From a virus, in IMG/VR virus record IMGVR_UViG_3300025151_000185, positions 1 to 30,247 of that record: DNA of 30,247 nt. One strand, written 5' to 3'. The notes beneath the pieces are model-generated. The model worked only from the letters and a program-made list of their open reading frames with translations, was not told the origin of the DNA and did no database searches. The position numbers and the translations under genes are program-made. Of this stretch, positions 8,355-25,415 are shown piece after piece (the stretch's first letter is position 1; every line of letters starts with the position of its first letter).

Positions 8355-8627
8355 TTACTGTTCAGTGTCCCTATTTGCCATCTTTTCCACTGAGTGACGT
8401 ATGGCTTTTATGTTTTCGTCCATACGTCCGAGGGTTACGGCTTGGCTTTGCACTACCTTTTCTAAAGCCTCTATCCTTGTTTCGTGCCGTATAAGTTCAC
8501 GTTGATTATTTTTTATATTATTGTCAAGACTTGATACATACCACACAAGTGCTACAGTTTGACCTACGATAGCCAGTATAAAAGTAATGGGTACAGATTT
8601 GCTTAGATGCCAACTATCGGTATTCAT
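8355..8627 (-). CDS. Small membrane protein with coiled coil (90 aa), possible spanin or holin
   Basis: One membrane segment at residues 13-31 (PITFILAIVGQTVALVWYV) is followed by a coiled-coil-like helix at about 36-85 (repeated E/R/L spacing, RIEALEKVV, RMDENIKAIR). This is the layout of an N-terminally anchored inner-membrane protein with a periplasmic or cytoplasmic coil, as in inner-membrane spanins or some holin-like phage proteins. No lipobox partner or endolysin is visible in the window. AAAGGA lies about ten bases before the ATG. It neighbours the other small membrane gene (153 aa), between the fibre genes and the internal virion genes. Lysis function is inference; the membrane topology is seen directly. 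Confidence 0.65.
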   Translation of the reverse strand: MNTDSWHLSKSVPITFILAIVGQTVALVWYVSSLDNNIKNNQRELIRHETRIEALEKVVQSQAVTLGRMDENIKAIRHSVEKMANRDTEQ

Positions 8628-8648: not shown

Positions 8649-9539
8649 TCATATATCAAACTGAAATATTTTATCGTCATAACTACTTGATACAGCCGCC
8701 ATAAGAAGATACATTTTACTCCCATCAAACTTAAAAACGGGGCCAGACCCATTACTATTTAACGTGTTTTGGGCAGGGTCTACACCCTGATTAATTTCTA
8801 TAGATGGTAATTGCCTATCAAAAGAAGCCGTTGTTAAATCCCAAGGCGTAGTAAGGTTATACTGAACAACAGAAGAAGAATTTGCTCTCATACCTACCCA
8901 CATTCTTTCACCGTTAGGATTAAACCATATACCCCGTTGACTATGGTTAGTTGTAGATTTAGCTGTTGTAAAAGTTCCTGTAGTAACATCCCAAGGAGTA
9001 CTAAGAGTTATTTGATATGCTTTATTGTAGCCACCAGAACCTGAACTATTTACTGTATATACTTCTTTACCACTAGGAGATATGTACAAACCTTGCACAG
9101 ATGTTCCTTGCATACCGCTACTAAAAGGCGGACTAAAATTAGAATCTCCCCAATTTAAAGTGCCATCACTAGAGGCGGTGCTAATGTCCCAATTTGTACT
9201 TAAATCATATCCTCTAAGGCGTCTGCTATTGTCATAATCTATTGTAAAATATTTACTGCCATCTTCCTTAAAAAATATACCCCCAAAACTATAGCTTTCC
9301 TGAGAGCTTGACCGTACATAAGATAGGGTACTTAAATCCCATGCAGTAGACATAGAATATTGATACATGTATTGATAATACCCTGCATACAAATTTAAAC
9401 CATCAGGAGAAATATAAATACTTTTATTGTTTTGGTTTCCCGTAGGCTCAAAAACTACAGAAGTTTCTGCTGTAGCAGATACCCCTAGCAAATCCGCATC
9501 AAAAGCACTGACAATAGGTAAAGTAGGAAATGGAAGCAT
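8649..9539 (-). CDS. Propeller-like tail surface protein, one five-unit module (296 aa)
   Basis: The protein contains five recurrences of an (F)xxDGxKxY ... QY/QF-x-(L/M)(S/T)T-x-W-D-(L/I/V)-(S/T)T unit, each roughly 45-55 residues: YQYSMSTAWD, RGYDLSTNWD, YQITLSTPWD, VQYNLTTPWD and the closing FQFDI. The pattern resembles NHL/WD-type beta-propeller blades, where a strand pair precedes a loop with DG. It matches the 573-aa protein at 15846-17567, which holds two such modules. I infer an adhesin or receptor-binding tip on the tail. Its ATG shares one base with the stop of the 713-aa fibre (TAATG), so the two products probably assemble together. No signal peptide; the first ~25 residues are a short lead-in. 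Exact fold and ligand are unknown. Confidence 0.6.
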   Translation of the reverse strand: MLPFPTLPIVSAFDADLLGVSATAETSVVFEPTGNQNNKSIYISPDGLNLYAGYYQYMYQYSMSTAWDLSTLSYVRSSSQESYSFGGIFFKEDGSKYFTIDYDNSRRLRGYDLSTNWDISTASSDGTLNWGDSNFSPPFSSGMQGTSVQGLYISPSGKEVYTVNSSGSGGYNKAYQITLSTPWDVTTGTFTTAKSTTNHSQRGIWFNPNGERMWVGMRANSSSVVQYNLTTPWDLTTASFDRQLPSIEINQGVDPAQNTLNSNGSGPVFKFDGSKMYLLMAAVSSSYDDKIFQFDI

Positions 9540-11680
9540 TATTGTAGTGCCTGTACCGTCAAGGAAGTAAACCCATTTATTTTCGTTACATATATAAAGA
9601 AATCATCTCCGTTTGTGGTGGTTAAATATCCTTGGTTTACAAGTTTAGTAAATCCTGATAATGTAACTGTTCCAGCAGATGAATTATTTGTCATTTGAAT
9701 AACCATAGTATAATCACCTGTTGCTGTAGGTGCAGCTAAGGTAAAAGCACCGCCATTAATAATACGTTTTAAGTTACCACCTGCAGGAGAAGGAGTATAT
9801 GTACCACTTGATTTAGTACCATCATCATCTGCTGTTGCTGTATAACCAGCAGTAATGTTATCGTCTGTATCTGCTTTTAATATTTCAGCATCTGCAGTTT
9901 CTTTACCGTCTAATGCTGTTTGCAAGCCTGATATGTCACTGATACCAGCAGTAACTGCAGTCCACTCAGTGTTCGCATTATCATATTGAAGTAACTGTCC
10001 GTTAGAAGGAGACATATTAGTATTTACATCTGTTAAGGTAGACAAACTACTTGCACTACTACCTACTATCCACTTAGATGTACTAGTATCATACTTTAAA
10101 ATTTCTCCATTAGACGGTACTGAGGCTATATTTACATCAGACAAACCATTTAAACCAATGTCTATGTTTGCCGTTCCATCAAAACTTACACCAGCAATAG
10201 TTCTTGCTGTTTCCAAACTAGTCGCTGAGTCAGCATTACCCGTAACATCACCTTCAAGGTTTGCTACAAGAGTGCTTACAGTGTATCCTGTAGCACTTGT
10301 ATCTACTGTTGTGGAAGAGGTTAGGTCTTGTAAACTATCATTAAATAGTTTCCACTTAGAACTATCACTAGCATCTCTAAATAAACCAGCACGTCTAATA
10401 GCACTATTACTATAGTACGTACCAAAGATACCTATATCTAAAGCGTTTGTAGATGTATTAGCTCTTGCTAGTTCTATTAAAGAATCTTCTACAGAAAGGT
10501 TAGCTGTATCTATAGTAGTCATAGTTCCCGATACAGTTAAGTTACCACCTACTATAACATTACCTGAAGTTGTTACCGCACCAAAATAACCATGACCCCA
10601 AGAAGTACTTCCATCGCCTATGGTACGAGAAGAACTATCAGGAATAATGTTAGAAGCTACTTTTGAATTAAGAACTACTTGATCAGAAGCAGCATCATTG
10701 CCTAGTGTTGTGTTGCCATTAACTGTAACGTTGTTAGCGAAGGTTACATTATTATCATTAAATGTAGCGGCTGTTGTTTGGCTTGATCCACTTTTAATTA
10801 CAAGCTGCCTATTAGAACCTATATTAGAATTAAATGATCCAAAAACAGTACCATTGTCTTTAAGTATTACATCTCCACCATCAGCATCTAAGTTTATATC
10901 TCCTGCTGAATCTAAAGTAAGATTGCCACTAGTTAAACTCAAAGTAGTAGTGTCTAAAATAAAATCATCTAGCTCTAGTCTACTTAGTGTAGTAGTCCCT
11001 GTAACATCTAAAGTTCCTGCAATTGCTGTGTTACCAGTAGTATCTGCCACGGTAAACTTATCTGTGTCCATAATAAGACCACCATTAAGTGCAGTCTCAC
11101 CTGCTACCGTTAGCTTATTATCTAAGGTTGTTTCACCTGTAATGTCTACCTTACCTGCAAAATCTACGTCTGCTGCTGTAAACGTAGCTGCTGTAGTTGT
11201 ACCAGACTTAATAACAATATCATTTGTATTACTATTTTTTACTATGCCACCAATGTCTGCCGTACTTTGTTGCAGTAAAATACCAGAACTAGTACCCCCA
11301 TTTATAGTTAAGGTCTGACCAGAAGTTATAGTATTGTCTGTTAAAATTATATGACCATTATCTCCTGCATATAAAGTATGTGCCCTAAGAGCACCATCAA
11401 AGTAGCCGTCTTTAAACATCTTACCTGTTAATCCTAAATCTACAGTATTAGAATTTTTAGGATATAAACTAGTAGTAGTAGAAACTATGTCTTGTTGCGG
11501 CCCTATTACTTCAATAGCCGCACCACCGCCCGTTACAGTAGGATCATGGTTATGTCCATCTACTGAACTAAAGGCATCCTTAATGGCATTAAACTCGTTA
11601 TCAAGAACAACCGCATCAATAACATTACCGTTATCAATGCTATTATTATCGTCTTGTCTTACATACCCGTTATTTGACAT
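9539..11680 (-). CDS. Tail fibre protein with beta-repeat shaft (713 aa)
   Basis: Fibre character is shown by the N-terminal segment DNEFNAIKDAFSSVDGHNHD (residues 27-46), a type common at the virion-binding end of phage fibres. It is followed by a long Thr/Ser/Asn/Gly/Asp-rich shaft made of short repeats (VTGTTTL, NLTVSGTMTT, ITGETTLDNKLTVAGETAL). About two thirds along is NLSVEDSLIELARANTST, resembling a recurrent block of marine phage fibres (from memory), and then two copies of an LSDVNI/LTDVNT...SNG-(E/Q)-(I/L)-L block. The last ~90 residues form a compact domain ending in TKINGFTSLTVQALQ. A trimeric beta-structured fibre is expected. It begins ten bases after the gp12-like nozzle gene, with AAGGA before the ATG, and is coupled by TAATG to the 296-aa propeller protein, which may be its tip or partner. 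Confidence 0.78.
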   Translation of the reverse strand: MSNNGYVRQDDNNSIDNGNVIDAVVLDNEFNAIKDAFSSVDGHNHDPTVTGGGAAIEVIGPQQDIVSTTTSLYPKNSNTVDLGLTGKMFKDGYFDGALRAHTLYAGDNGHIILTDNTITSGQTLTINGGTSSGILLQQSTADIGGIVKNSNTNDIVIKSGTTTAATFTAADVDFAGKVDITGETTLDNKLTVAGETALNGGLIMDTDKFTVADTTGNTAIAGTLDVTGTTTLSRLELDDFILDTTTLSLTSGNLTLDSAGDINLDADGGDVILKDNGTVFGSFNSNIGSNRQLVIKSGSSQTTAATFNDNNVTFANNVTVNGNTTLGNDAASDQVVLNSKVASNIIPDSSSRTIGDGSTSWGHGYFGAVTTSGNVIVGGNLTVSGTMTTIDTANLSVEDSLIELARANTSTNALDIGIFGTYYSNSAIRRAGLFRDASDSSKWKLFNDSLQDLTSSTTVDTSATGYTVSTLVANLEGDVTGNADSATSLETARTIAGVSFDGTANIDIGLNGLSDVNIASVPSNGEILKYDTSTSKWIVGSSASSLSTLTDVNTNMSPSNGQLLQYDNANTEWTAVTAGISDISGLQTALDGKETADAEILKADTDDNITAGYTATADDDGTKSSGTYTPSPAGGNLKRIINGGAFTLAAPTATGDYTMVIQMTNNSSAGTVTLSGFTKLVNQGYLTTTNGDDFFIYVTKINGFTSLTVQALQ

Positions 11681-11689
11681 AGTTTTTCC

Positions 11690-13261
11690 TTATTGTCTGT
11701 CATTCTGAGCGAACTCTAACACAGCAGTGTCAAGAGTAAATGTTGGATTAGCTGTATTATCTGCAATACGTAGAGCTACAGTTTTACCTGATCCTATAAC
11801 ATTTGTATTATATATATTATCTAACTCACCACCATACGTAGCTGTACCATAAATAGCATTAGATGCACCGTATATAAACACAGATGTACCTGTTCCTGTA
11901 AGTTGTTGTGTTGATGGCTGTACTGTTCCTGCTTCAGCTTTCGCATCAAAATCGTATTTAATATTAAAGTCTAGTGACATTGATCCAGTAGGTTGAGCAT
12001 ACAAAGTCATTTTATAAAATGTTTTTCTTGTTTGTGGGTCTGTTATAGGCATGTAGGGAGATTCATATATAGCTTCTATATTAGCCCCATCAAAGTTAGA
12101 GCCTGTGTCCATGATATAAACATACCCATCTTCATTTGAAAATGCTACAGTTTCTATATTATTAGCATACCTACTATCTGCTACTGTTGCTTTTATGCCC
12201 TGTGTAGTTGCCCAAGAAAATCCCCCTGCGCCTTGTGCTACATATTTTGTTGCTATTAAACCTTTAGCTACTGAAGCTGTTTCATTTTCAATATATGAAA
12301 ACAATCTATACTGTGCTTTTTCACGAAGAATAACAGAAGAAAAATTAGATGTTGCGTTTATTAAAGTGTTAGCATCTTTCTGTATTTTATCAGAAGCTAC
12401 ATCTAAAGCAAAATCACCTATACGATCAGTTGCACTTAACAGGCGTAAACCGTCAGGCGCAAGATACATAATGTCACCACCAACTTCTTGTATGGTATTA
12501 CCGTCTATACATCCTGTTCTAGTTGTAATAGGAGATATAGTATAGTCTGCAGAACTAGAACCTCGTAATGCAGAAATAGTATCTTTAGTAAATATTAAAA
12601 GTTGATCCCTAAAAACAATAAGACCTGTTATTTTTTGGCCTACGAGTTTATCTCCACCTAAACCCGCTTCAAAATTATCCACTGTTTCTGGGGCTGAATA
12701 TACTAACATATTGTTTACAGCATAAAAAGCAGCATTCTTATATATAGCTACGTGATCCGCACCTGATATTGCTGTAGAATTTGCTGAAGTTAAAAATGTA
12801 AAAGTATCTCCCGATGTACTGTATATTGCGGGATAATTTGCTCCATCTACAAATATAGTATTGTCATATCCTGAAAAATTGTACTCAGCACTTCTTACTT
12901 TACCACCTACTCCTGTTCCTACTCCTGTTGCTACCCCTGCGCTATCTAAAAAAGGTGTCCACGCACTACTTCCACCAGTGTTTAAATAATATTCAGTTCT
13001 ATTGTTACTATTTTTTCTAGCAGCAATAATTTTACTAGAGTTAATTACTTTAAGAGCTAACGTTGGGCCTGTACCTGCTAAAGCATTTGTAGAATACTTT
13101 TGATACCCAAGTATCTTAGAGTAGCCACCCTCTGTATTAGGCTCAAAGTTTTGCAAAATAGTAGCAGAACCAACAGCATTTATACCTTGCTGCAGTTTAC
13201 TGAGATTAGAAATAAGCCCACCTCTAAACTCTATAGGAAATGTTTGCCATTGGGTTGCCAT
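11690..13261 (-). CDS. Tail tubular protein B-like / nozzle protein (523 aa)
   Basis: The opening block (FPIEFRGGLISNLSKLQQG ... ILQNFEPNTEGGYSKILGY, residues 8-54) is the hallmark N-terminus of the podoviral tail-tube B family (T7 gp12 type): small Gly-rich strand, then N-F-x-P-x-x-x-G-G-Y-x-K-I-x-G-Y. The body is beta-rich with repeated hydrophobic-strand/turn units, consistent with the propeller known for the T7 nozzle. The C-terminal ~120 residues form another beta domain. The family builds the distal tail tube through which DNA leaves. It is coupled by TAATG to the gp11-like gene just upstream, and that adjacent pair is the strongest local argument for a short tail. Length is less than T7 gp12 (about 790 aa), so this is a shorter relative. 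Confidence 0.72.
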   Translation of the reverse strand: MATQWQTFPIEFRGGLISNLSKLQQGINAVGSATILQNFEPNTEGGYSKILGYQKYSTNALAGTGPTLALKVINSSKIIAARKNSNNRTEYYLNTGGSSAWTPFLDSAGVATGVGTGVGGKVRSAEYNFSGYDNTIFVDGANYPAIYSTSGDTFTFLTSANSTAISGADHVAIYKNAAFYAVNNMLVYSAPETVDNFEAGLGGDKLVGQKITGLIVFRDQLLIFTKDTISALRGSSSADYTISPITTRTGCIDGNTIQEVGGDIMYLAPDGLRLLSATDRIGDFALDVASDKIQKDANTLINATSNFSSVILREKAQYRLFSYIENETASVAKGLIATKYVAQGAGGFSWATTQGIKATVADSRYANNIETVAFSNEDGYVYIMDTGSNFDGANIEAIYESPYMPITDPQTRKTFYKMTLYAQPTGSMSLDFNIKYDFDAKAEAGTVQPSTQQLTGTGTSVFIYGASNAIYGTATYGGELDNIYNTNVIGSGKTVALRIADNTANPTFTLDTAVLEFAQNDRQ

Positions 13262-13950
13262 TAATAGTGAACTCGTGTATCTCTTACATAGTCTGTACGG
13301 TTTATATTTATACTACGTAAGTGTTTTATACTTTGTTGAAACTTTACGAAGGACTGTTGTGATGATTGATTGTCACCCCTAAACTGATATGCATAGTACA
13401 TAGCTCCATCTACAATAACGTGCCTATGTTGCTCTGGTATATTAGGAACATCACTGTGTAGCTCTAGATTAAAACCTAATGTGTAGTATTCGTATATTAA
13501 TTCGTATGCTTTATCTGGGGAAGGGTATACAAGTATTTCTCTGCTAGGTGCACGGATTATATATCTAGGAACACCTCTTATATCAGTACTTGAGTTATAC
13601 TCTATATCAGCATGTTTGTCAAGATATTCTTCGTATGTCATTGGTTTTAATTTAATAGTATCTACATTTAATGTAGCATCTCTTTTTATTCTAAAGCTAT
13701 TCATGTTTACAGTTTTACTGTCTGTAGGTAATCCATACCTAACTTCACCTGCTAGTAAAACTTCTGTTTCTTCTACGTGATTCCAAGGCCACTCAAACTC
13801 TTCATGGTGTATGTGTCTAATAGAAGAGTTAATAGCTTCTTTAGCAAAGCTATAAAAACCTGTAGCCGCAGCAAAATTAGCTGTGCTTAATTCTACTTCA
13901 TTTAACCTTTTGTTAACATCATTAACTAAACCCAAGAAGTCATACGCCAT
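13261..13950 (-). CDS. Tail tubular protein A-like adaptor (229 aa)
   Basis: Residues 31-55 (GFYSFAKEAINSSIRHIHHE and EFEWPW) and the C-terminal segment IPEQHRHVIVDGAMYYAYQF, followed by RGD, match the pattern I know from podoviral gp11-like adaptor proteins. These are mainly helical, with a middle beta insertion, and sit between portal and nozzle. The middle carries the GVPRYIIRAPSREILVYPSPD block (about 125-145) followed by YELIYEYYTLG. It is followed immediately by the gp12-like gene with TAATG coupling, as in T7-like tails. The ribosome site GGGAGA is formed by the last codons of the preceding 105-aa gene, so translation is linked there too. Assignment is by pattern and neighbour, not by search. 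Confidence 0.68.
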   Translation of the reverse strand: MAYDFLGLVNDVNKRLNEVELSTANFAAATGFYSFAKEAINSSIRHIHHEEFEWPWNHVEETEVLLAGEVRYGLPTDSKTVNMNSFRIKRDATLNVDTIKLKPMTYEEYLDKHADIEYNSSTDIRGVPRYIIRAPSREILVYPSPDKAYELIYEYYTLGFNLELHSDVPNIPEQHRHVIVDGAMYYAYQFRGDNQSSQQSFVKFQQSIKHLRSININRTDYVRDTRVHY

Positions 13951-13953
13951 ATT

Positions 13954-14271
13954 TTATTTCTCCCTAATACGTAAAAATATAGATCGCTCGTATGTAAGGG
14001 AACTAGCTGTAGTTATACCACATGTTATTTTATAACGTAGGTTGTTAGTTCCTAAAGATAATCGTATAGTAGCTACTGTATTTGTATTTGTTCCTGTAAC
14101 AAACTGTAAGCCATTAACAGTATCCGCATCTGCTACTTGCGTTTTTACATCAGAAGCATTATCAATATACCATGTAACAGAAGCAATAGTATCTGTGCCT
14201 AAAAACCTAGACCAATCTACACTGTAATCTATTGTTTCATCTTTATCTTTATCGGGCCACTTATATGCCAT
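13954..14271 (-). CDS. Small Ig-like virion-associated protein (105 aa)
   Basis: The pattern YSVDWSRFLGTDTIASVTWYI, followed by a Thr/Asn-rich strand region and ending RSIFLRIREK, is a recurrent small phage protein next to tail genes. The alternation of strands suggests a single immunoglobulin-like beta sandwich. I know no firm function; an adaptor joining a fibre or neck component to the tail is a reasonable guess from its place directly before the gp11-like adaptor gene. AGAGGA sits eight bases before the ATG. The final codons (AGG GAG AAA TAA) double as the ribosome site of the next gene three bases downstream. Confidence 0.62.
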   Translation of the reverse strand: MAYKWPDKDKDETIDYSVDWSRFLGTDTIASVTWYIDNASDVKTQVADADTVNGLQFVTGTNTNTVATIRLSLGTNNLRYKITCGITTASSLTYERSIFLRIREK

Positions 14272-14281
14272 GTAGTTTCCT

Positions 14282-15835
14282 CTATGCTGCTATGAATACT
14301 GTTTTAGCACGTGCGTCTTCTGCTAGTATGTGTACTGTACGATTTTCTTTTTGTATGTACACAGTATTTACTGAACTTAATGTGTGTAAAAATACAACAT
14401 TGTTTTCTTTCTGTACAGTAACATTATAATCTGTATCCTGACCTAGGATATACACTACTCTTTGTTTACTGTAATCTTTTTGACTGTAATCAGTAGAGTT
14501 CTCTACTATTGTAACTGTACCGACAGAGCTTGTCAAGCCATTTAATGTTACAGGTACAGTTGTATTAATACTTACAGACTGACCTGTTAAATTAAACGAA
14601 CCCCCACTTACAGGTCTACTTGTATTAAATACCGTATCTTGTCCATTGACACTAAAAGTAGCTGCAGCAGGTATAATGCCCGGTAGATACTCTAGTGTAG
14701 CAGTTTGTCCTGTTAGAGTAAAGGAACCAACTTGTGCTAGTTCAGATATTCCTCTGTCAATTTCTTGACCTTCTAGTGTAAATACACCAGTTTCTGGGTA
14801 CAAGTTAAGCGACTTAACAAAGTCTGTGTCTTGACCTGTTAATGCAAAGCTGCCTGTATTAGCACCAATAGCTCTTATTAAATCAACACTTTGACCTGTA
14901 GTTGTAAAGCTACCTTGATCTGCTGCTATGTTTAGTTGAGCATTAACATTTGCAGCTTGTCCTGTGTAAGTAAACTCACCTACCTGTACTGCACCTGTTA
15001 CGCCTACTACAAGAGTCTGTCCTGTTAGGCTAAATGTATTTGCATCTACAGATATAACTCTGTTAATATTTAGATCAGAGTCTTGGCCTGTTACGACAAA
15101 CGTTTCACTTACTATACTCTTTACTACAGACTTAGTTAGACTTACATCTTGTCCTGTTAAAGAGTAGCTATTGCTTTCGACAATCTCAACAATGTCAGCA
15201 TTAGCATCTTGACCTGTAAGTGCAAACGTGCCTGTGTCTGCAACAAGAAGCTGTACTTTTCTAGGATCAGCATCTATGCCAGTTAAAGTAAATGTACCTG
15301 CGTCTGCTGTAACATTAAGCTCTGCAGATACACTGGCATCTTGTCCTGTTAAGGTAAAGCTACCAGAAGCTACATCTATACTACGTACAGAATTAGGTGT
15401 AGCATCTTGTAGTGTGGAAGTGTAGGAACCTACGTCTGCAGGGAATATAATACTAAATACAGAAGTCTGTCCAACTAGTGCAAATGTACCTGAATCAACA
15501 GGATGTTCTATGCTATTTACACTATCTTGACCTGTGAGGCTAAACGAACCTGTAGCTGCTGTAAGTATTTGACCTCTGATGAGATCATCTGCAGCTTGTG
15601 CTGTAGCGGTAAATGTACCCGCATCTACAGATAGAACACTGTCAATGTTTAGTACAGAGTCTTGACCAGTAAGAGTAAAGCTACCGTGAGTTACATCTAC
15701 ACTACGTACAGATGTTAGAGTAGATGCTTGACCCGTAAGTGCAAAGCTACCACTGGCTGCTGTAATTTGATATACAATACCAATGGCCCCATCATCAGCA
15801 AGTGGAGCAGCCGCTAATGGGGAGAAGCCAAGCAT
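14282..15835 (-). CDS. Repeat-built virion surface protein, 19 short beta repeats (517 aa)
   Basis: After a 28-residue lead (LGFSPLAAAPLADDG...) the protein is a tandem array of 19 units of the form G-(S/T)-F-x-L-T-G-Q-(D/x), starting at residues 29, 51, 73, 96, 116, 136, 158, 180, 202, 222, 244, 266, 286, 308, 328, 350, 370, 392 and 412. Spacings are almost all exactly 20 or 22. Such regular, Thr/Val-rich units fit a beta-solenoid or stacked strand-turn fibre. Residues ~446-517 are a different domain with the pattern VYIQKENRTVHIL repeated in weaker form (VTVQKENNVVFLH, RVVYILGQDTD), a type I remember as a separate small phage protein. Here it appears fused. AAGGAGT precedes the ATG by seven bases. 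Likely an appendage or head/tail decoration; receptor binding is inference. Confidence 0.62.
   Translation of the reverse strand: MLGFSPLAAAPLADDGAIGIVYQITAASGSFALTGQASTLTSVRSVDVTHGSFTLTGQDSVLNIDSVLSVDAGTFTATAQAADDLIRGQILTAATGSFSLTGQDSVNSIEHPVDSGTFALVGQTSVFSIIFPADVGSYTSTLQDATPNSVRSIDVASGSFTLTGQDASVSAELNVTADAGTFTLTGIDADPRKVQLLVADTGTFALTGQDANADIVEIVESNSYSLTGQDVSLTKSVVKSIVSETFVVTGQDSDLNINRVISVDANTFSLTGQTLVVGVTGAVQVGEFTYTGQAANVNAQLNIAADQGSFTTTGQSVDLIRAIGANTGSFALTGQDTDFVKSLNLYPETGVFTLEGQEIDRGISELAQVGSFTLTGQTATLEYLPGIIPAAATFSVNGQDTVFNTSRPVSGGSFNLTGQSVSINTTVPVTLNGLTSSVGTVTIVENSTDYSQKDYSKQRVVYILGQDTDYNVTVQKENNVVFLHTLSSVNTVYIQKENRTVHILAEDARAKTVFIAA
14537..15751 (-). repeat. Array encoding 19 G-S-F-x-L-T-G-Q units
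   Basis: This stretch encodes residues 29-433 of the 517-aa protein. Unit length is 60 or 66 bases with one 69-base exception. Units are diverged at the DNA level but the TGQ core codons are alike (rendered as ttgacctgt / ttgtcctgt on the plus strand). Confidence 0.85.
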
Positions 15836-15845
15836 GTGTTACTCC

Positions 15846-17567
15846 TTACGTTGAATACTGGTAAACTGCATCGCTGTCTAAACCTACAATGTACATCTTC
15901 GAGCCATCTGATTTAAACGAAATGCCAACAGGAACTGCTTCTTGAGTAGATACGCTGAAACTTACATTGTCGTAAGAAGCTGTGCTTAAGTCATAATTTG
16001 TTGACAAAGAATACCTATACACATTGTCATTTCCAGCACCAACAAAAAACATCTTGTCTCCAGAAGGATTAAAGTAAACGCTCTCTGGGGTATTATCTAC
16101 GGTGGCTACATTTATGCGAACTGAACTATACGAGCTAGTGCTTATGTCATATGCAGTACTTAAACTTAACTCATAGATGTAATCCGATCCTCGACAAGGA
16201 ATATAATACTTAGTTCCATCGCTGTTAAAAAACATACCAGAGGGAATAGTTATATCTGTTGGCAACGCATAAGAAACACTATCATAACTTGCAGTAGATA
16301 TATCCCACGCAGTTGACAGCGAATACTGAAACACGTCATCTAAATAAGAATCAATAATATACATTTTAGAACCGTCTGGCTTAAATGTTATTGCTCTGGG
16401 ATCAGCTGCCTGTGATGAGGTGTCAAACGATTTATTTTCATAGCTTGCAGTAGATAAATCCCATGCTGTCGATAAACCATATTGAAACAATGTATCAGCA
16501 GTTAAGTCTAATATGTAAAACTTTGTGCCATCAGGTTTAAAAAACATATCTATAGAAACAGACGACTGAGAAGAAATGTCAAAACTAACACTATCATAGC
16601 TTGCGTTAGCTAGGTCAGGGTCAGTCCAAGATGCGTATGGGTCTACTGTGGAATACTGGTAAGTGGCACCGCTGCCATTAGGATAATAAGCATTGTATGC
16701 TTTGGAGCCATCAGACTTAAATTCCAGACCTGTTTGACAATCCTCATTCAGACCAAATGATATATTGGCATAGGAAGCGGTAGAGATGTCAAAGGCAGTA
16801 GACAGATTAAATTGAAAGACACCCCCAACACTACTGCCAGATGCTTCAGTAAAGCTAATATACAACTTATCGCCAGTGGGCGTAAAATAAAGGCCGCTTA
16901 CTTGGTCCCCATAAGTATTTAAACTTGTGATTGATTTGTTGTCGTAAGAAATACCCGACAGCGTATAAGCCGTTGACAAGCTAAACTGCCATACAACATC
17001 GACGTTGTAGTCTGCAACGTAAACCTTTGTACCATCGTCGTTAAAGCGGATAGACGTGGGTTCTTCTGAGGATGAAGGCCATGAGGAAAACGATGAGTTA
17101 TCATAGCTTGCTGTACCCACGTCAAAAGCCGTAGATAAGCTGTACTGAAATATGGCTTCGACCCCTGACCCAAGCATAAACATGCGTGTACCATCAGCGC
17201 TGAACGCAATGTCTCTTGGCTGCGTTTCTTGAGCCGCAACAGAAAAACTTGTGTCGTAACTAGATGTGCTTAAATCCCATGCAGTGCTTAGATCATATTG
17301 ATGTATGCTATCACTGCCTATATCCCCAATCCAACAACGTGTCCCATCAGACTTGAACCTAAATATAGTTGCGCTGCTCGTTATTTCACTACCGCCTTCT
17401 TGGTTTACAGACACACTATCATAAGTTGCATAAGCTAGGTCAGGGTCAGTCCAACTAGACCCTGCTTCCCATATCTTAGTGCTGCCAACGTAAACGGCAG
17501 ATACGGTTGTGCTTCCGACAGCTATATTACTGAAGGCGGTAGAGCCAAGGTATGCTGTCTGCACCAT
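15846..17567 (-). CDS. Propeller-like tail surface protein, two five-unit modules (573 aa)
   Basis: Residues 1-36 are a short strand-rich anchor with YLGSTAFSN and VYVGSTKIWEAG, a type found at the N-terminus of phage tail proteins. Two modules follow. Each opens with WTDPDLAxAxYDSVS (residues 39 and 314) and closes with YQYST (303-307 and 569-573). Each contains five DG-x-(K/R)-(M/V/F/Y)-(Y/F) ... (F/Y/W)-(Q/R/E)-(Y/F/L)-S-L-S-T-A-(W/F/Y)-D units about 50 residues long. The 296-aa protein at 8649-9539 is a single five-unit module of the same kind. This fits one five-bladed (or five-unit) beta-propeller per module; a host-surface binding role is inferred. It begins three bases after the 46-aa gene. 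One sampled line (17161-17220) has 32 G+C of 60, well above neighbours, hinting at separate origin. Confidence 0.65.
   Translation of the reverse strand: MVQTAYLGSTAFSNIAVGSTTVSAVYVGSTKIWEAGSSWTDPDLAYATYDSVSVNQEGGSEITSSATIFRFKSDGTRCWIGDIGSDSIHQYDLSTAWDLSTSSYDTSFSVAAQETQPRDIAFSADGTRMFMLGSGVEAIFQYSLSTAFDVGTASYDNSSFSSWPSSSEEPTSIRFNDDGTKVYVADYNVDVVWQFSLSTAYTLSGISYDNKSITSLNTYGDQVSGLYFTPTGDKLYISFTEASGSSVGGVFQFNLSTAFDISTASYANISFGLNEDCQTGLEFKSDGSKAYNAYYPNGSGATYQYSTVDPYASWTDPDLANASYDSVSFDISSQSSVSIDMFFKPDGTKFYILDLTADTLFQYGLSTAWDLSTASYENKSFDTSSQAADPRAITFKPDGSKMYIIDSYLDDVFQYSLSTAWDISTASYDSVSYALPTDITIPSGMFFNSDGTKYYIPCRGSDYIYELSLSTAYDISTSSYSSVRINVATVDNTPESVYFNPSGDKMFFVGAGNDNVYRYSLSTNYDLSTASYDNVSFSVSTQEAVPVGISFKSDGSKMYIVGLDSDAVYQYST
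15849..17453 (-). repeat. Tandem duplication of a five-unit propeller module
   Basis: Module 1 is encoded by 16647-17453 and module 2 by 15849-16628. The opening WTDPDLA and closing YQYST match; internal units have diverged, though LSTAWD and STASYD recur almost unchanged. Confidence 0.75.
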
Positions 17568-17570
17568 TGT

Positions 17571-17711
17571 TTATCCTGTCACAAAGTAAATCGTGTTGGC
17601 GTCTGGAGAGGACGGCAGTGCTGCCACTACAGCAATCTTGTAGCCACCAATGGCAACGTAGCCACTGGTAGCCGAGATGTCATTCGTCTGGTGATTTATC
17701 GTGAGGCTCAT
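17571..17711 (-). CDS. 46-aa protein in the fibre cluster (short gene)
   Basis: An ATG at 17711 opens a 46-codon frame ending in TAA at 17571. It fills the space between the 101-aa gene (stop at 17715, three bases before this ATG) and the 573-aa gene (ATG three bases after this stop). The product begins MSLTINHQTNDISATSGYVA and ends ALPSSPDANTIYFVTG. The latter (L-P-S-S-P-D-A-N-T-x-Y-F-V) is a phrase I know from phage tail proteins. Perfect fit into the gap and family-like sequence argue for a real gene despite the lack of a strong ribosome site; translation is probably coupled to the upstream stop. A connector or chaperone for the following tail protein is possible but unproven. Confidence 0.7.
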   Translation of the reverse strand: MSLTINHQTNDISATSGYVAIGGYKIAVVAALPSSPDANTIYFVTG

Positions 17712-17714
17712 AAG

Positions 17715-18020
17715 TTATACCGCCGTTGATCCATCCATGTCATCTTGAGCCATGACCCAAGCATAGCACTTATCTACAAAGGCATCACCCGATGCAGCTT
17801 CAATATCTGTGAGGTTTGCGTTGTAACGTTTAAAGTCTACCTCACGAGTATCATCTGTGGGTGAGCTTGTAGCATAAGCTGACAAGTCAATCATAACTGT
17901 AAACTTTGGGTCTGACCCACGTTGACGTGACACAGCCGCTGTCACGATGCGGTAGTAAGCATTATTAAAGGCGATACCATACTGGCTTGCCCCTTCTGCG
18001 ATGTTGTGTTGTATAGCCAT
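17715..18020 (-). CDS. Small tail-associated protein of unknown function (101 aa)
   Basis: A compact mixed alpha/beta protein: an N-terminal strand region (YGIAFNNAYYRIVTAAVSRQ), a middle with VMIDLSAYATSS, and a C-terminal acidic helix (ITD-like NLTDIEAASGDAFVDKCYAWVM). There is no membrane segment or signal peptide. AAGGAGA lies about seven bases before the ATG. Position between three fibre genes and the propeller-like gene suggests a tail or fibre-attachment component. I know similar short proteins in phage tail regions but no assigned function. Confidence 0.62.
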   Translation of the reverse strand: MAIQHNIAEGASQYGIAFNNAYYRIVTAAVSRQRGSDPKFTVMIDLSAYATSSPTDDTREVDFKRYNANLTDIEAASGDAFVDKCYAWVMAQDDMDGSTAV

Positions 18021-18040
18021 CTGATTTCTCCTTCTAGGCG

Positions 18041-19171
18041 TTAATACGAATTATAGATCGTTTCTGATGATCTTAATGTGCATACCCACTTTACATTGGA
18101 AGATGCTGCACCCGTTACTAGAACACTTAATGCTCCATTCGTTGTATCCGCAGCTAAAGCAAGTCCCCAAGAAGGAGTATTATCTATAACAGTAATTGCG
18201 GAATTAACCAAAGTTGTAGTGCTTGCTGCACTTTCCCTTCTAATTAAACCTTCTACTTTCCACGCTGCACAGTTTGTGTCAGAAGCATTGCCTTGCCCCC
18301 TTGCTACAATCATTCCATCAAAAGCGATAGCACCGTAAGAAGGAACAACAAGTTGATTGTCACTACCTGCCGTTCCTAGTGATTGAAGGGAACTGTCCGA
18401 TGTAAGCGTACCTTGCGTATTATTGGCGGTTCGACCATGAATAACGAGCATACCCGTTTGGGCATAACCCTCCGTAACTAAAGAGCCTGTGCCGTGAACA
18501 AATTGGCCTTTTGCGTTACAGTTACTTCTTGCGCCTAGAGCCACGCCATAATTTTTACCACTTAGAACTCTAGCACCAGAACCTATAGCAACCCCATTAT
18601 TTGAGTTAACTCTAGCTTGACTGCCTAGAGCAATTGCTCCACTGGCTTGAGCGCCATAAGAGGAGGCACTGTTTCCTATACCTGCCGCAAAACTATTAGA
18701 ACCTGTCGCCCTAGATGCCCCAAGAGCAACAGCCCCAGTACTACTAGCTAAGGCATTATTCCCAACAGCAAACGCATGTTGTGCCGTTGCTTGAGCACCA
18801 TAACCAAAAGCAATACTATAATTAGCAGTAGCCTTAGCTTGACCTGCTCCTGCAATAGCCATTGTACCAGTAGCCCCATAACTAGAGCTATTTGTACCTA
18901 GGTGTATACTATGATTATAACCAGTACCTCCTGCGTAAGAATTGCCAATGGCGGTACTTGATGTACCTGCTACTACGGATCTTTCACCAATACCGATTGC
19001 ATCCGTACCAGTTACATTTGGAAGCGTAGAACTTCCCCCATAATTCTCTTTAACAAGGTTTAAACTACCACCACCACCAATTGCTGTGCCGTTTAAGAGT
19101 AAGTTTGTACCATCAGAACTTAGTGCTATGTCTGAACCGCTGCCCGTATGTTTTATATTAATAGCGCCCAT
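18041..19171 (-). CDS. Tail fibre, YadA-head-like repeats, third copy (376 aa)
   Basis: Residues 5-35 nearly repeat the start of the neighbouring 406-aa protein (HTGSGSDIALSSDGTNLLLN then GTAIGGGG). Residues ~55-235 are a run of 14-20-residue units with A-(I/V/F)-(A/G)-x-G cores (FGYGAQATA, VGNNALASS, IGSGARVLS), as in the left-handed parallel beta-roll of YadA-type trimeric adhesin heads. Residues ~240-376 are the C-terminal domain shared by all three fibres, with LALAADTTNGALSVLVTGAA and KWVCTLRSSE near the end. I chose the ATG at 19171 because it forms TAATG with the previous stop. An ATG 14 codons earlier would overlap the 406-aa gene. A trimeric receptor-binding fibre is expected. Confidence 0.72.
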   Translation of the reverse strand: MGAINIKHTGSGSDIALSSDGTNLLLNGTAIGGGGSLNLVKENYGGSSTLPNVTGTDAIGIGERSVVAGTSSTAIGNSYAGGTGYNHSIHLGTNSSSYGATGTMAIAGAGQAKATANYSIAFGYGAQATAQHAFAVGNNALASSTGAVALGASRATGSNSFAAGIGNSASSYGAQASGAIALGSQARVNSNNGVAIGSGARVLSGKNYGVALGARSNCNAKGQFVHGTGSLVTEGYAQTGMLVIHGRTANNTQGTLTSDSSLQSLGTAGSDNQLVVPSYGAIAFDGMIVARGQGNASDTNCAAWKVEGLIRRESAASTTTLVNSAITVIDNTPSWGLALAADTTNGALSVLVTGAASSNVKWVCTLRSSETIYNSY

Positions 19172-20391
19172 TATGCGTATGTAACCTCCGATGTGTGAAC
19201 CGTTGCTACCCAACGAATATCTGTTGAAGCTGCACCCGTGACTTCAATTTTCAAACAACCGTTTGTGGTATCTGCGGATAAAGCTAAAGCCCATCCTGTA
19301 GGTACGTTAAACTCATCTATTGTTGATTTAATTAAGGTTGTTGTACCTGCGTTAGCCTCTCTACGAATAGCACCTTTAAACTCCCAAGCACCTACATCAG
19401 TACCGTCTGCTGCTTGCTGTCTAGCAATACACGTTCCAGTAAAGAAATAAGCTGAGTTGTTGGGCAAGACTACTTGGTTTGTAGTATTTGGTGAACCGTT
19501 AATAGATGTTAATGCTTCAGCAGTGGCATCTGTTGTATCTGATCGCAAAACACGCTTGGCTGTTTGTGCATCGCCTCTGCTAGAAAAATCACCACTGGCC
19601 CATACGTCTTTACCATGATCATCATTGGTATCAGCATCGTGTCCACCTGCTCTTGAATAACTAGCTAACGCACGATTATTGCGACCGCCTCCTATAAAGG
19701 AATAGCCCCCTTCTGCTTGGTTCATCCAGCCGCCTACGACAGCAGCTTGCCCACTGGTAACTAGATTACTATCACCGCCCCAACATAAGGTATCAGTTGC
19801 AGTAGCTTTATTAAGATAACCACCTGCCATACTATAAGAGCCACTAGCACCATAGCTAGAGGATTTGTTTGTAATAGCTGCTGCAAAGCTGTGAGTACCC
19901 GATGTACGGCTATACGGCAAAGCTGTACTGTATAACCCTGCTGCTCTTGATGAATGCCCTAAAGCTGTTGCAAAATTTGAAGTGCTTTCAGCCTGAACAC
20001 CAAAAGCACTACCTTGGTATCCCGCAGAAGCATCGTAACCAACGGCTGTAGCCCATACGGCGGTAGAAGTAGTATTATAACCTATAGCTATATGACCATA
20101 AGTAGCAGTAGCATTATGCCCAATGGCGATTTGATAACTTTCTGTAGTAGAGCAATCTGCAAGACTACCAATAGCAATTGAACTTGTTCCATTTGCATTT
20201 GCACCTGAACCAATAGCTATCGACCTTGTTCCGCTTGCGGTGGGGTTGGTTGAGCTAGTAGTTTCAACAGCATAAAGGTCTGCACCACCGCCACCACCAA
20301 TGGCTGTTCCGTTTAACAGAAGGCTAGTGCCGTCCGACGATAGAGTAATTGCACTGCCTGAGCCTGTGTTGTCTAAATTAACCGAACCCAT
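19171..20391 (-). CDS. Tail fibre, YadA-head-like repeats, second copy (406 aa)
   Basis: Residues 1-37 are an N-terminal block almost shared with the 376-aa protein (24 of 27 residues alike from T9 to G35), perhaps the attachment part. Residues ~55-270 are YadA-head-like units (SIAIGSGANANGTSSIAIGS, then IAIGHNATA, IAIGYNTTS, TAVGYDASA). They include the SFAAAITNKSSSYGASG element found in each fibre of the cluster. Residues ~280-406 are the common C-terminal domain (VLRSDTTDATAEAL, NQVVLPNNSAYFFTGT, LALSADTTNG, DIRWVATVHTSEV). Its ATG follows directly on the TAA of the 817-aa gene. As with bacterial trimeric adhesins, a trimeric beta-roll is expected; ligand unknown. Confidence 0.75.
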   Translation of the reverse strand: MGSVNLDNTGSGSAITLSSDGTSLLLNGTAIGGGGGADLYAVETTSSTNPTASGTRSIAIGSGANANGTSSIAIGSLADCSTTESYQIAIGHNATATYGHIAIGYNTTSTAVWATAVGYDASAGYQGSAFGVQAESTSNFATALGHSSRAAGLYSTALPYSRTSGTHSFAAAITNKSSSYGASGSYSMAGGYLNKATATDTLCWGGDSNLVTSGQAAVVGGWMNQAEGGYSFIGGGRNNRALASYSRAGGHDADTNDDHGKDVWASGDFSSRGDAQTAKRVLRSDTTDATAEALTSINGSPNTTNQVVLPNNSAYFFTGTCIARQQAADGTDVGAWEFKGAIRREANAGTTTLIKSTIDEFNVPTGWALALSADTTNGCLKIEVTGAASTDIRWVATVHTSEVTYA

Positions 20392-22845
20392 TTAATAAAT
20401 TACCTCCGTAGTATTCACGGTTGCCACCCACCGAATGGAGTGTGATGCCTCACCTGTTACTGTGATTGCCACCGCACCGTTTGTTGTGTCTGCTGAAAGA
20501 GCAATACTCCAGTTTGCAGCGCCTGTGCTTTCACTGATTTTGTTGATGTTGTACGAGCCAAGGGCTGTCGTGGAGGCACTTCCCGCCCTCACCGCTCCAC
20601 CTTTGATTTCCCACACAGCGAAGTCGTTAGTGCTTGAGCTATCTTCACGGGCAATAACTGTACCTGTAAACCCATAACAAGAGTTATTAGGCAGATTAAC
20701 TTGGTTATCAGATTGAACGCCACCGTTGTTGCGAGTTGTTAAAGCCTCTGAGGTCGCATCGGTGGTATCCGCACGTAGAACATATGTTCCTGTTTGAGCG
20801 GAGCCTTCAGTACTGCCAAACCTTCCAGACGCATAAGAGTATTTCCCTTGACTTTCAGACAGCGCATATTCACCGAAAGAGGTCGCTAGATAAGCATTTG
20901 AGGTACTGTTTCCCACGGCAATTGAGTTTGTTCCAGATGCTGTACTAGCATATCCCAAAGAAAGTGACTTGGAACCAGATGCGTATGCGCTTGGCCCAAG
21001 TGCGATTGAATCACTTGCGGTGGCTCTTGATTGCAACCCAATTGAGATTGCAGCCCACCCCGTAGCCCCGTATGCTGCATTACTATTACCAATCACGGCC
21101 CCAAAGGATTTATAACCTGACGATAATGTATCTCCACCCAGTGCTACACTTTCTGTGTTGGACGCAATTGCATTCGTTCCGATAGCGACTGCATTTGTTC
21201 CACTCGCCGTAGGTGTCGTAGAACTAGAAGCATTATCTCTATAAAGGTCAGGGTCGCCACCACCGCCGCTTACAGTAGCAAAAGATAAGGCTCCAGAGCC
21301 ATCAGTTTGAAGAACCTGATTGGCGCTTCCGTCCGCCGTGGGAAGAGTATAGGCACCAGATACTTTGACTTGCGCAGTGCTTGAGCCGAGAGCAATTTGC
21401 TTGTCGGCTGTGGTGACTGCTTGGTAGCCAAGGGCTACACCGTTGTCGTGCAACGCACCGTAACTGCTTGAGTTAGTACCTATAGCACCTGCCAGTGAGT
21501 TTGAGTTAGTTGCGTAAGAGTTAGCAAGACCAACAGCATATTCGCCATAAGACCTTGCATTCCGACCCAAGGCTGCTCCCCCTGCGCCATATGCGTATGC
21601 ACTTGTGCCGAGGGCTATTGAATTTGTTGCAGTGGCGTATGCGCCATTGCCAAGGGCCGTTGAATACAGCCCTGACGCAAGCGAACCTTTGTGTAACGCC
21701 ATGCTCTCTGAGCCTGTGGCTGATGCCCCTGAACCAATCGCCACGGAGTCTGTATTGGTAGATTTAGCTAGCTCACCAATCGCAATACTGTTAGCACCAG
21801 TAGCACCATAGCTGCTTGTGTTGTTAGCTATAGCTGCCGCAAGACTGTCTGCACCAGAGGCGTAACTATCAGTAAGGGCTGTTGCTTGACTTCCTGCAGC
21901 CACCGCTTCTGAACCTATTGCAGTTGAGCCAGAGGGGTTTCCAGAGTTATCAGCGTTGTACCCGATTGCGGTGTTGTTATCTGTAGATGCAACAGATCTA
22001 CCTGCTCGGTATCCTATGCCAACGTTATAATCGCCAGTTAGCTTATTTAGGTTTGATCCAGTCGCAGCATTAAGACCGATACCAACATTACCAGAACCTG
22101 TCGTTACGAAACGACCTGCGTTTCTGCCATACAAAGTATTAGAGCTACCTGTTGTTATATATTGCCCTGATAAAGCACCAAATGCAACATTTTCAATACC
22201 TGTCGTTATGTCACCCAGAACATCACGACCAATGCCATAATTGTCAGTTGTTGTGTTGCTAACGCATGGGGTCAGGTCGTTTAGGTCAGTAGCACCGCCA
22301 CCTGAAGCATCTGCAAAGGTAACAGCACCTGAGCCATTTGTAGTCAGCACTTGACCGTTAGTACCGTCAGCCGTTGGTAAGGTGTAGGCATTGTTTACAT
22401 TGACTGTGCCTGTCGTTTGAATACCACCTGAGTAAGTTTCTAATTTTTTACTCCCTGAATGAAACACCTCCATTTGAGAGGCAGATAAAGTCATCAAACT
22501 TGTTCCAGAAGCATTTTTAAACTTAATCTCTTGGCCTTGAATATTTAAATGGCTTGAACCACTTTCAGTGATATAACTTGAAGTGCCGTCAGTATAAATT
22601 TCTAGCTCGTTACCTCCGCTAGAGCCGAATTTTACTTTAACATTATCGTCAAACTCAACGCCTGTTGCGCCGCCAATGTTACTGCTAACAAAAGAATAAC
22701 CTAAGCTAGTCCATGCAGTAGAGCCATCACCAATTTTTAACTTGCCTGTATCAGTTTCATAACCTTGCTCACCCTGAGAAAGTGTGGGGTTACTGCTAGT
22801 CCAGTTAGAGGCAGTATCTCTGCGTAATTGTATTTTGTTTGCCAT
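20392..22845 (-). CDS. Large tail fibre with Mtd-like N-domain and YadA-head-like repeats (817 aa)
   Basis: Residues 4-50 (KIQLRRDTASNWTSSNP through GKLKIGDGSTAWTSLGY) match the Mtd-N-type virion-attachment fold of phage tail proteins. Next come a fibre neck (to ~150), the block AYTLPTADG...QVLTTNGSGA at 153-174, YadA-head-like repeats at ~215-490, a second copy of the block at 498-519 (AYTLPTADG...QVLQTDGSGA), and a second repeat run at ~545-660. Residues ~685-817 are the C-terminal domain shared with the 406- and 376-aa fibres (TGTYVLRADTTDATSEALT, NQVNLPNNSCYGFTGTVIAR, IRWVATVNTTEV). It looks like an internally duplicated or fused fibre. It is the first fibre of the cluster, coupled to the 124-aa gene by TAATG, and is the only one with this attachment domain. 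A sampled line (21001-21060) has 31 G+C of 60. Confidence 0.78.
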   Translation of the reverse strand: MANKIQLRRDTASNWTSSNPTLSQGEQGYETDTGKLKIGDGSTAWTSLGYSFVSSNIGGATGVEFDDNVKVKFGSSGGNELEIYTDGTSSYITESGSSHLNIQGQEIKFKNASGTSLMTLSASQMEVFHSGSKKLETYSGGIQTTGTVNVNNAYTLPTADGTNGQVLTTNGSGAVTFADASGGGATDLNDLTPCVSNTTTDNYGIGRDVLGDITTGIENVAFGALSGQYITTGSSNTLYGRNAGRFVTTGSGNVGIGLNAATGSNLNKLTGDYNVGIGYRAGRSVASTDNNTAIGYNADNSGNPSGSTAIGSEAVAAGSQATALTDSYASGADSLAAAIANNTSSYGATGANSIAIGELAKSTNTDSVAIGSGASATGSESMALHKGSLASGLYSTALGNGAYATATNSIALGTSAYAYGAGGAALGRNARSYGEYAVGLANSYATNSNSLAGAIGTNSSSYGALHDNGVALGYQAVTTADKQIALGSSTAQVKVSGAYTLPTADGSANQVLQTDGSGALSFATVSGGGGDPDLYRDNASSSTTPTASGTNAVAIGTNAIASNTESVALGGDTLSSGYKSFGAVIGNSNAAYGATGWAAISIGLQSRATASDSIALGPSAYASGSKSLSLGYASTASGTNSIAVGNSTSNAYLATSFGEYALSESQGKYSYASGRFGSTEGSAQTGTYVLRADTTDATSEALTTRNNGGVQSDNQVNLPNNSCYGFTGTVIAREDSSSTNDFAVWEIKGGAVRAGSASTTALGSYNINKISESTGAANWSIALSADTTNGAVAITVTGEASHSIRWVATVNTTEVIY

Positions 22846-23219
22846 TAGGCAGAACCCCCATTAATATCGCCCAGAGTAGTGTCGTAGGTAGAAGCTGCTG
22901 CACCACCGTCAATAAGCCTATCTATAATATCATCCGCAGTAGCGGTTACAAAAACCTTTGCGTTACCAGATAAGTTAATAGCATTATTGGAGTTAGAGCT
23001 TTCTGTAACCACCCTAGTTAACGTTGTGCCTGATGCAGTATATACACCAGTTCCTATCTCAAAAGCTGTAGAATCTTCAATCGTATATCTTACAGTAGTA
23101 CCATCAGTCACCCCTGCAGAAGCAAAACTTTGATAGCCAGACTCAGCGCTGCCCAATGTTATTGTGCCAGTACCAGTAGTGCTAGTTCCCATTTTTGCTC
23201 TATTTACAAGAGTGACCAT
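22845..23219 (-). CDS. Small phage structural protein upstream of fibres (124 aa)
   Basis: The opening ([20 protein letters not shown], then [17 protein letters not shown]) and the following [19 protein letters not shown] and [12 protein letters not shown]...[12 protein letters not shown] match a small all-beta family often found just before or fused to phage tail fibres. I know it as a recurring domain without a clear name. It ends in a short helix (DDIIDRLID) and a Gly/Ser tail. Its TAA shares a base with the ATG of the 817-aa fibre. A role in fibre attachment or the virion surface is likely from position and family. Confidence 0.7.
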
Positions 23220-25247: not shown

Positions 25248-25255
25248 TTTAATTA

Positions 25256-25262
25256 CTCCTTT
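25256..25262 (-). promoter_or_regulatory. Strong ribosome binding site of the capsid gene
   Basis: AAAGGAG lies eight bases before the ATG at 25247, near-ideal pairing to the 16S rRNA tail. It decides between this start and the 39-codon longer frame. Confidence 0.85.
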
Positions 25263-25326
25263 AGCATAAAGATACAGATGCAAACCTTCAATTGTTATAC
25301 AGAGGCTAACTCTATTAGGGTGCACT

Positions 25327-25355
25327 ATTATAAGCATTGGCCTATGCTTAATCAA
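25327..25355 (-). promoter_or_regulatory. Sigma70-type promoter close to the capsid gene
   Basis: On the minus strand TTGATT (25350-25355) and a perfect TATAAT (25327-25332) are separated by 17 bases. Transcription would begin near 25320, about 70 bases before the capsid ATG. The spacer contains a seven-base inverted repeat (25331-25337 and 25344-25350) overlapping both promoter elements, which could be an operator or chance. Confidence 0.72.
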
Positions 25356-25415
25356 GTGGGCCATAAGACATTAGGTTGTCCGAAAGCGTATTGTTGTTTG
25401 CGTAGGATAGTTAGG

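Follow-up and report, generated by a model that had tools for sequence, protein, structure and literature searches.

The DNA analysed here, called the window, is a 30,247-base virus record (IMG/VR IMGVR_UViG_3300025151_000185). We describe in it a block of minus-strand genes for large surface-type proteins, above all a 713-amino-acid (aa) tail fibre and the 296-aa protein encoded directly after it, which we propose to be the fibre's tip. Labels such as L002, L003 and G001 denote related loci to which the window was compared. Judged by its sequence, the window comes from a marine podophage of the HMO-2011 type: portal, capsid, adaptor and nozzle are homologous to those of HMO-2011-type isolates and lie in the same conserved order. 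The portal fragment and the capsid are 90% and 87% identical to those of CRP-1, the 523-aa protein in the nozzle position is 62.8% identical over 100% of its length to a 'putative tail structure protein' of Roseobacter phage CRP-207, and portal and adaptor match SU10 families in Pfam. The group's core replication genes (helicase, primase and family A DNA polymerase) fall outside this 30-kb fragment. The isolates of this comparison (Puniceispirillum phage HMO-2011, Roseobacter phages CRP-207, CRP-603, CRP-345 and CRP-1, and Pelagibacter phage HTVC033P) also resemble the window in the fibre N-terminus and in having several fibre-type genes downstream (PMC9038755). In contrast to the window, none of the HMO-2011-type isolates examined has tandem YadA-like fibres or the C-terminal domain of the 713-aa fibre. 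The genes and features of the block are as follows.

8649..9539, minus strand: 296-aa one-module beta-propeller with the N-terminal tag MLPFPTLP, proposed separate tip adhesin of the 713-aa fibre (AlphaFold2, Foldseek, sequence)
9539..11680, minus strand: 713-aa tail fibre adjoining the nozzle (conserved N-terminus)
9539..9841, minus strand: C-terminal domain of the 713-aa fibre (last 100 aa plus stop), proposed tip socket (conservation, linkage)
11690..13261, minus strand: 523-aa nozzle-position (gp12-like) tail protein (CRP-207; phrog_5107, 7.6e-51)
13261..13950, minus strand: 229-aa head-tail adaptor, gp11-like (Pfam SU10_adaptor, 4.6e-17; phrog_10775 tail protein, 4.5e-37)
13954..14271, minus strand: 105-aa fiber-tail adaptor of the GP4 gp77 family (Pfam PF23148, 2e-16, 60.7 bits against a cut-off of 27; 77 loci)
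14282..15835, minus strand: 517-aa protein with 19 repeats of ~22 aa (repeat count; positional family)
15846..17567, minus strand: 573-aa two-module beta-propeller protein, optional gene (Pfam Lactonase, 3.8e-16)
17715..18020, minus strand: 101-aa small protein, kept between variable genes (identity in L002, L003 and G001)
18041..19171, minus strand: 376-aa YadA-like fibre, third tandem gene (Pfam YadA_head, 2e-8)
19171..20391, minus strand: 406-aa YadA-like fibre, second tandem gene (Pfam YadA_head, 1.1e-8)
20392..22845, minus strand: 817-aa YadA-like fibre, first tandem gene, with an Mtd_N N-terminal domain (Pfam YadA_head, 3e-24; Mtd_N, 9e-18)
22845..23219, minus strand: 124-aa protein corresponding to the N-terminal domain of longer fibres, here a gene of its own (identity to fibre N-termini)

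The N-terminal ~95 aa of the 713-aa fibre are conserved in the nozzle-adjacent fibres of 82 loci and of CRP-603, CRP-207 and CRP-345. Its last ~100 residues, which had no match in Pfam, PHROG or PDB, form a conserved domain with 27 invariant columns in 15 sequences. The stop codon of the fibre overlaps the start codon of the 296-aa gene (TAATG at 9539), whose product is 95% identical in L002. In the first 29 viral loci with the domain, taken together with the freshwater phage MW202675.1 (Manatee Spring), nearly all fibres ended exactly at the domain and the next gene followed at once, most often starting M(T/S)FP(F/L). A wider profile scan yielded 59 dereplicated usable viral loci: three residues or fewer (0–3) followed the domain in 57/59, and the next gene overlapped or abutted the fibre gene (−4 or −1 nt) in 53/59. 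The next protein carried an F-P tag in 33/59 loci by a strict and 45/59 by a loose definition, compared to 2/1057 and 6/1057 background open reading frames (ORFs), one of the strict-tag background ORFs being L002's own tip. In bacterial genomes (mainly Rhizobiales and Burkholderiaceae) the domain was C-terminal in 13/14, the overlap was present in 11/14 and the tag in 8/14, in a set that partly overlaps the viral one and shares some identical tips with it. The fibre of MW202675.1 ends in the same domain (67% identity), and the next gene, which overlaps it, is 'ycF48-like' and has an FPLMP tag; this is a different phage with a differently annotated propeller gene, and we found no description of its two genes as a pair.

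The proteins encoded after the fibre are ~200–300 aa long and combine a short F-P-rich N-terminal tag with a body of unrelated fold. Pfam matched the bodies to propeller-type families (L100, L111 and weakly L108), to Laminin_G_3 (L124, 2e-13) and to Gly_rich_2 (L193, 1.3e-21), and others were unclassified. The earlier note, made from the window's sequence alone, had named a two-module and a one-module propeller-like protein, and this was borne out: the 573-aa protein matches Pfam Lactonase, and each of its halves can be aligned to the 296-aa protein (E 1e-26 and 1e-13). AlphaFold2 predicted a propeller for the 296-aa protein (pTM 0.81), with a Foldseek probability of 1.00 to WD40/lactonase propellers. 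The strand pattern of the model and its Foldseek matches, which were propellers both in the PDB and among viral proteins, indicate four-stranded blades arranged in a ring. The body was modelled as structured and the tag (residues 1–13) with low confidence.

Comparison of close relatives revealed that the C-terminal domain and the gene after it were exchanged together. L003 has 92% nozzle identity with the window and shares nearly all of the fibre. The DNA of L002 and L003 is mostly 87–100% identical along the fibre to about codon 570, beyond which neither the socket nor the next gene is related; identity collapsed at about codon 570–596, the C-terminal domain being replaced along with the gene after it. 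In L003 the replacement is a second fibre-end type (..VTAYGTV), followed by a gene starting ..DIQTEFGGSNPISMSEYY with a glycine-rich body where checked. In the group, the ..VTAYGTV end was paired with the ..DIQTEFGGSNPISMSEYY tag in 41/42 cases and the tag occurred in 0/21 without that end (24/25 and 0/18 after dereplication), a count that is descriptive, since the rule was defined on the data counted and the loci are related, so that p = 3e-11 is no probability. G001 and G002 (nozzle ~61–64%) carry the socket type of the window but the 92% sister L003 does not, and therefore the tip type does not follow the relatedness of the core.

We propose that the 713-aa fibre would attach next to the nozzle and end in a docking domain, on which a tip encoded by a gene of its own, the 296-aa propeller, would be held through its short proline-rich N-terminal tag. 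The conserved tag and the joint swap suggest that the tag binds the fibre C-terminus. Socket and tip would be inherited and exchanged as one cassette, similar to the gp37/gp38 pairing in T2-type phages, in which gp38 sits on gp37 and must match it with its N-terminus (PMC12892980). The gp37–gp38 long tail fibre of T2/S16-type phages likewise has a separate tip with an N-terminal attachment region and a hypervariable binding body, a tip gene directly downstream of the fibre gene, and glycine-rich bodies, which here occur among related tips (PMC12892980). In contrast to gp37–gp38, the window belongs to a podophage, a short F-P tag takes the place of the ~110-aa N-terminal region, and the tip is a beta-propeller. 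No homology of the 713- and 296-aa proteins to gp37 or gp38 families was detected in Pfam or PHROG, and the 296-aa protein, being a propeller, has no polyglycine sandwich body; Gly_rich_2 bodies were found in related tips only.

The earlier note had also named three YadA-like fibres (817, 406 and 376 aa), and these scored 85.2, 35.7 and 34.8 for YadA_head against the Pfam cut-off of 25. The 817-aa protein matched by sequence the solved trimeric adhesins YadA (1p9h), EibD and BpaC, and also a phage hyaluronidase, in the PDB. The 406- and 376-aa proteins are paralogues (37% over 412 columns), and one C-terminal domain is common to all three. When compared to L002, the C-terminal domains matched best by position (817 to 568, 83%; 406 to 603, 68%; 376 to 379, 55%), while most head segments were only 28–54% identical. 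The genes would encode three tandem trimeric fibres with ends conserved by position and reshuffled heads. The YadA-head beta-roll repeats are common to these fibres and to the trimeric autotransporter adhesins YadA, EibD and BpaC; unlike the latter, the window fibres have phage N-terminal (Mtd_N) and phage-type C-terminal domains, and no family of the YadA membrane anchor (the autotransporter C-terminal barrel) was matched in Pfam. Despite the Mtd_N domain, no long near-identical template/variable-repeat pair of the tropism-switching type was seen in the window. The adjoining 124-aa protein is 46–54% identical to the N-termini of 790–1126-aa fibres in CRP-207, CRP-603, L036 and L012; it corresponds to a fibre N-terminal domain that is split off here and fused in these relatives.

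The two modules of the 573-aa propeller open with nearly the same segment (42 nt at 90% DNA identity), which is consistent with an internal duplication, and a one-module homologue was found in L092. The gene is absent from L002, and in L003 it is replaced by a 346-aa YadA-type gene and a 93-aa gene. Of the whole set, only this double propeller looks, on the comparison of relatives, like an optional insertion, and it would constitute a fourth appendage system. It has its own N-terminal motif (YLGSTAFSNIAVGSTTVSAVYVGSTKIW), common to L092, which might be a docking tag of a third kind; no instance came up when the HMO-2011-type loci were searched for it. A 403-aa protein of Lentibacter phage ICBM2 and a 1213-aa protein of CRP-13 are of the same propeller type; unlike the window tip they are longer, are annotated as hypothetical and do not lie directly behind a socket-ending fibre.

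The 517-aa protein contained exactly 19 repeat copies, as the earlier note had counted, at a spacing of 19–24 aa. It belongs to a positional family located directly ahead of the gp77-like adaptor in HMO-2011-type loci that have this adaptor, and no protein of this type was present in the gene lists of the isolates lacking a detectable gp77-like gene (HMO-2011, CRP-1, CRP-2, CRP-9, CRP-13, CRP-738 and HTVC033P). A PDB sequence search gave no match for the gp77-like protein or the nozzle. Family members, 207–785 aa in the other loci listed, have an N-terminal MLGF(S/T)-type tag (such as MLGFSPL), variable middle repeats and a C-terminal NRTVYI..VYIAA-type motif. We propose that the repeat protein is placed next to the gp77-like fibre-tail adaptor and differs in length according to how many repeats it has; the idea that it is an acquired adhesin was rejected, as it is the local version of the family. 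The 101-aa protein is 94% (L002), 97% (L003) and 88% (G001) identical, while the genes on both sides were exchanged. In L092, a contig not of the HMO-2011 type, an MLGFSPL-type protein with another repeat (LTGLGILTGQP) is encoded at L092:1490, suggesting that this family may move between phage types. The same otherwise different contig has a homologue of the 101-aa protein beside a propeller and this repeat protein.

How unusual is this set of genes? The earlier note had counted seven or more different repeat-built surface proteins within 8649–22845. All seven ORFs are present at the sizes and on the strand it gave (817, 406, 376, 573, 517, 713 and 296 aa, the 376-aa protein being counted from the ATG at 19171), but self-comparison reduced them to four families: three YadA-like paralogues, two propeller paralogues, the 19-repeat protein and the tail fibre. 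Seven independent fibre types were thereby ruled out. 'Repeat-built' holds for most of them; the 713-aa protein, a fibre shaft, shows no clear tandem repeats. With paralogues counted once and the 713-aa fibre and its 296-aa tip taken as one appendage, there are about four appendage systems. A branched or multi-receptor adhesion apparatus, the earlier suggestion, would be best read as a multi-adhesin apparatus of about four systems rather than seven types. The norm of one or two fibre or spike types for short-tailed phages proved to be the wrong yardstick here. In ten isolates of the group the interval from the capsid to the internal virion protein is 10.5–15.0 kb and holds 2–5 large ORFs, compared to 16.3 kb and seven large ORFs in the window (tail-core proteins excluded, by hand in CRP-345, HTVC033P and CRP-1); HMO-2011 has two large genes and about a dozen short ones annotated as fibre or hypothetical. 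Thus, seven large genes are the upper end of a group habit.

The tail core (gp11/gp12-like genes) does lie embedded among the appendage genes. L002 (92% nozzle identity) has the order capsid-160-145-124-YadA-YadA-YadA-101-repeat protein-105-229-nozzle-fibre-propeller tip and lacks the 573-aa gene only. The gene order of G001 (nozzle ~61%) is identical, but its third YadA gene leaves the contig at one end and its 101-aa gene starts at the other, the join not being shown; G002 agrees for the part covered. Related contigs keep the order of these genes (YadA-like, 101-aa, repeat protein, adaptors, nozzle, fibre and tip) down to ~60% nozzle identity, so that the set is for the most part inherited as a block, and the claim that appendage genes had accumulated around the tail core is mostly wrong.

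In the neighbourhood of the block, the capsid ORF (24177–25364) is ~39 aa too long from its first ATG when compared to relatives starting MAFGKASGYSN... A 930-aa protein is encoded after the portal (26439–29231); its version in a sister contig (L297:4942–9519) has 1525 aa, with the extra ~638 aa at the N-terminus. A 90-aa membrane/coiled-coil protein with weak Rz-spanin-like PHROG matches is encoded at 8355–8627, in the stretch that separates the tip gene from the virion genes after it.

The block is probably host-adhesion equipment organised in about four appendage systems, including the socket-and-tip fibre, whose proteins would be present on the virion, form trimers in the case of the fibres, dock physically and bind receptors. 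The limits given above for the bacterial set and for the count of the second pair weigh against this reading, as do the about one quarter of tips without even the loose tag, the low confidence of the all-beta AlphaFold2 model of the 517-aa protein (pLDDT 59, fold not interpreted), and the fact that conserved gene order alone also fits assembly helpers. The place directly after a fibre gene is the usual one for such helpers. The 296-aa protein could then be an assembly chaperone (Tfa or T4 gp38-like) absent from the virion, and T4's own gp38 is indeed a helper released after assembly (PMC12892980). We consider this quite improbable: if the domain it acts on is conserved, a helper ought to be conserved too, yet these proteins share only the short tag, behind which lie bodies of unrelated folds (propeller, Laminin_G_3, Gly_rich_2); moreover, L126 and L127 have a distant version of the domain in one protein with a glycine-rich domain, as a fusion. 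The propellers, instead of being pure binders, might be lactonase- or lyase-like enzymes modifying the surface polysaccharide of the host, as their Pfam Lactonase and SGL matches would allow. This is unlikely, as the similarity is that of propellers in general, the top structural matches include WD40 scaffolds besides lactonases, and the tip position is elsewhere filled by lectin-like and glycine-rich domains.

The seven genes could also be a loose accumulation of morons and fibres, gained singly near a recombination-prone tail locus and without joint function. The absence or replacement of the 573-aa propeller in sisters, the exchanged heads and tips, and the G+C content of the 101-aa, YadA and 573-aa genes (0.41–0.47 compared to 0.34–0.40 in neighbouring tail genes) point in this direction. 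However, the 406- and 376-aa YadA genes fall inside the range of the genome in third-position G+C (GC3), and synteny weakens this explanation, the order from the tandem YadA-like genes to the tip being kept in L002, G001 and the covered part of G002; we regard it as very doubtful. A possible, though not the favoured, arrangement is that the 124-aa and YadA-like proteins decorate the head, giving head fibres plus tail fibres. Their genes come after the capsid gene and two small genes and ahead of the tail genes, but their counterparts of 879 and 1003 aa carry no annotation other than tail fibre or hypothetical, and there was no match to a head-anchor family. Either head or tail may be the site of the YadA-like fibres, as the capsid-adjacent gene position is compatible with both.

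Finally, the pairing of fibre and tip genes is found in numerous unrelated phages besides this one. There are known examples of two-part fibres, of YadA-like phage fibres and of phage propellers. We did not find described a fibre C-terminal domain with tagged, fold-independent tips, or its wide distribution, and a literature search (subscription papers were mostly outside its reach) found no published description of the fibre/tip pairing. We lean towards a general adhesin-exchange system of tailed phages, in which a ~100-aa socket takes tips of unrelated folds through an F-P-rich plug peptide, a second pair (VTAYGTV end and DIQTEFGG tag) does the same, and receptor specificity is changed by swapping the two-part cassette. 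Phages of the HMO-2011 type rank as one of the most abundant groups of marine phages (PMC9038755), and we found no account in the literature of how they recognise their hosts. If the socket-and-tip arrangement is true, a sequence rule would pick out the probable receptor-binding protein in many uncultured phages with unannotated tips, and the host specificity of ocean phages would become directly testable.

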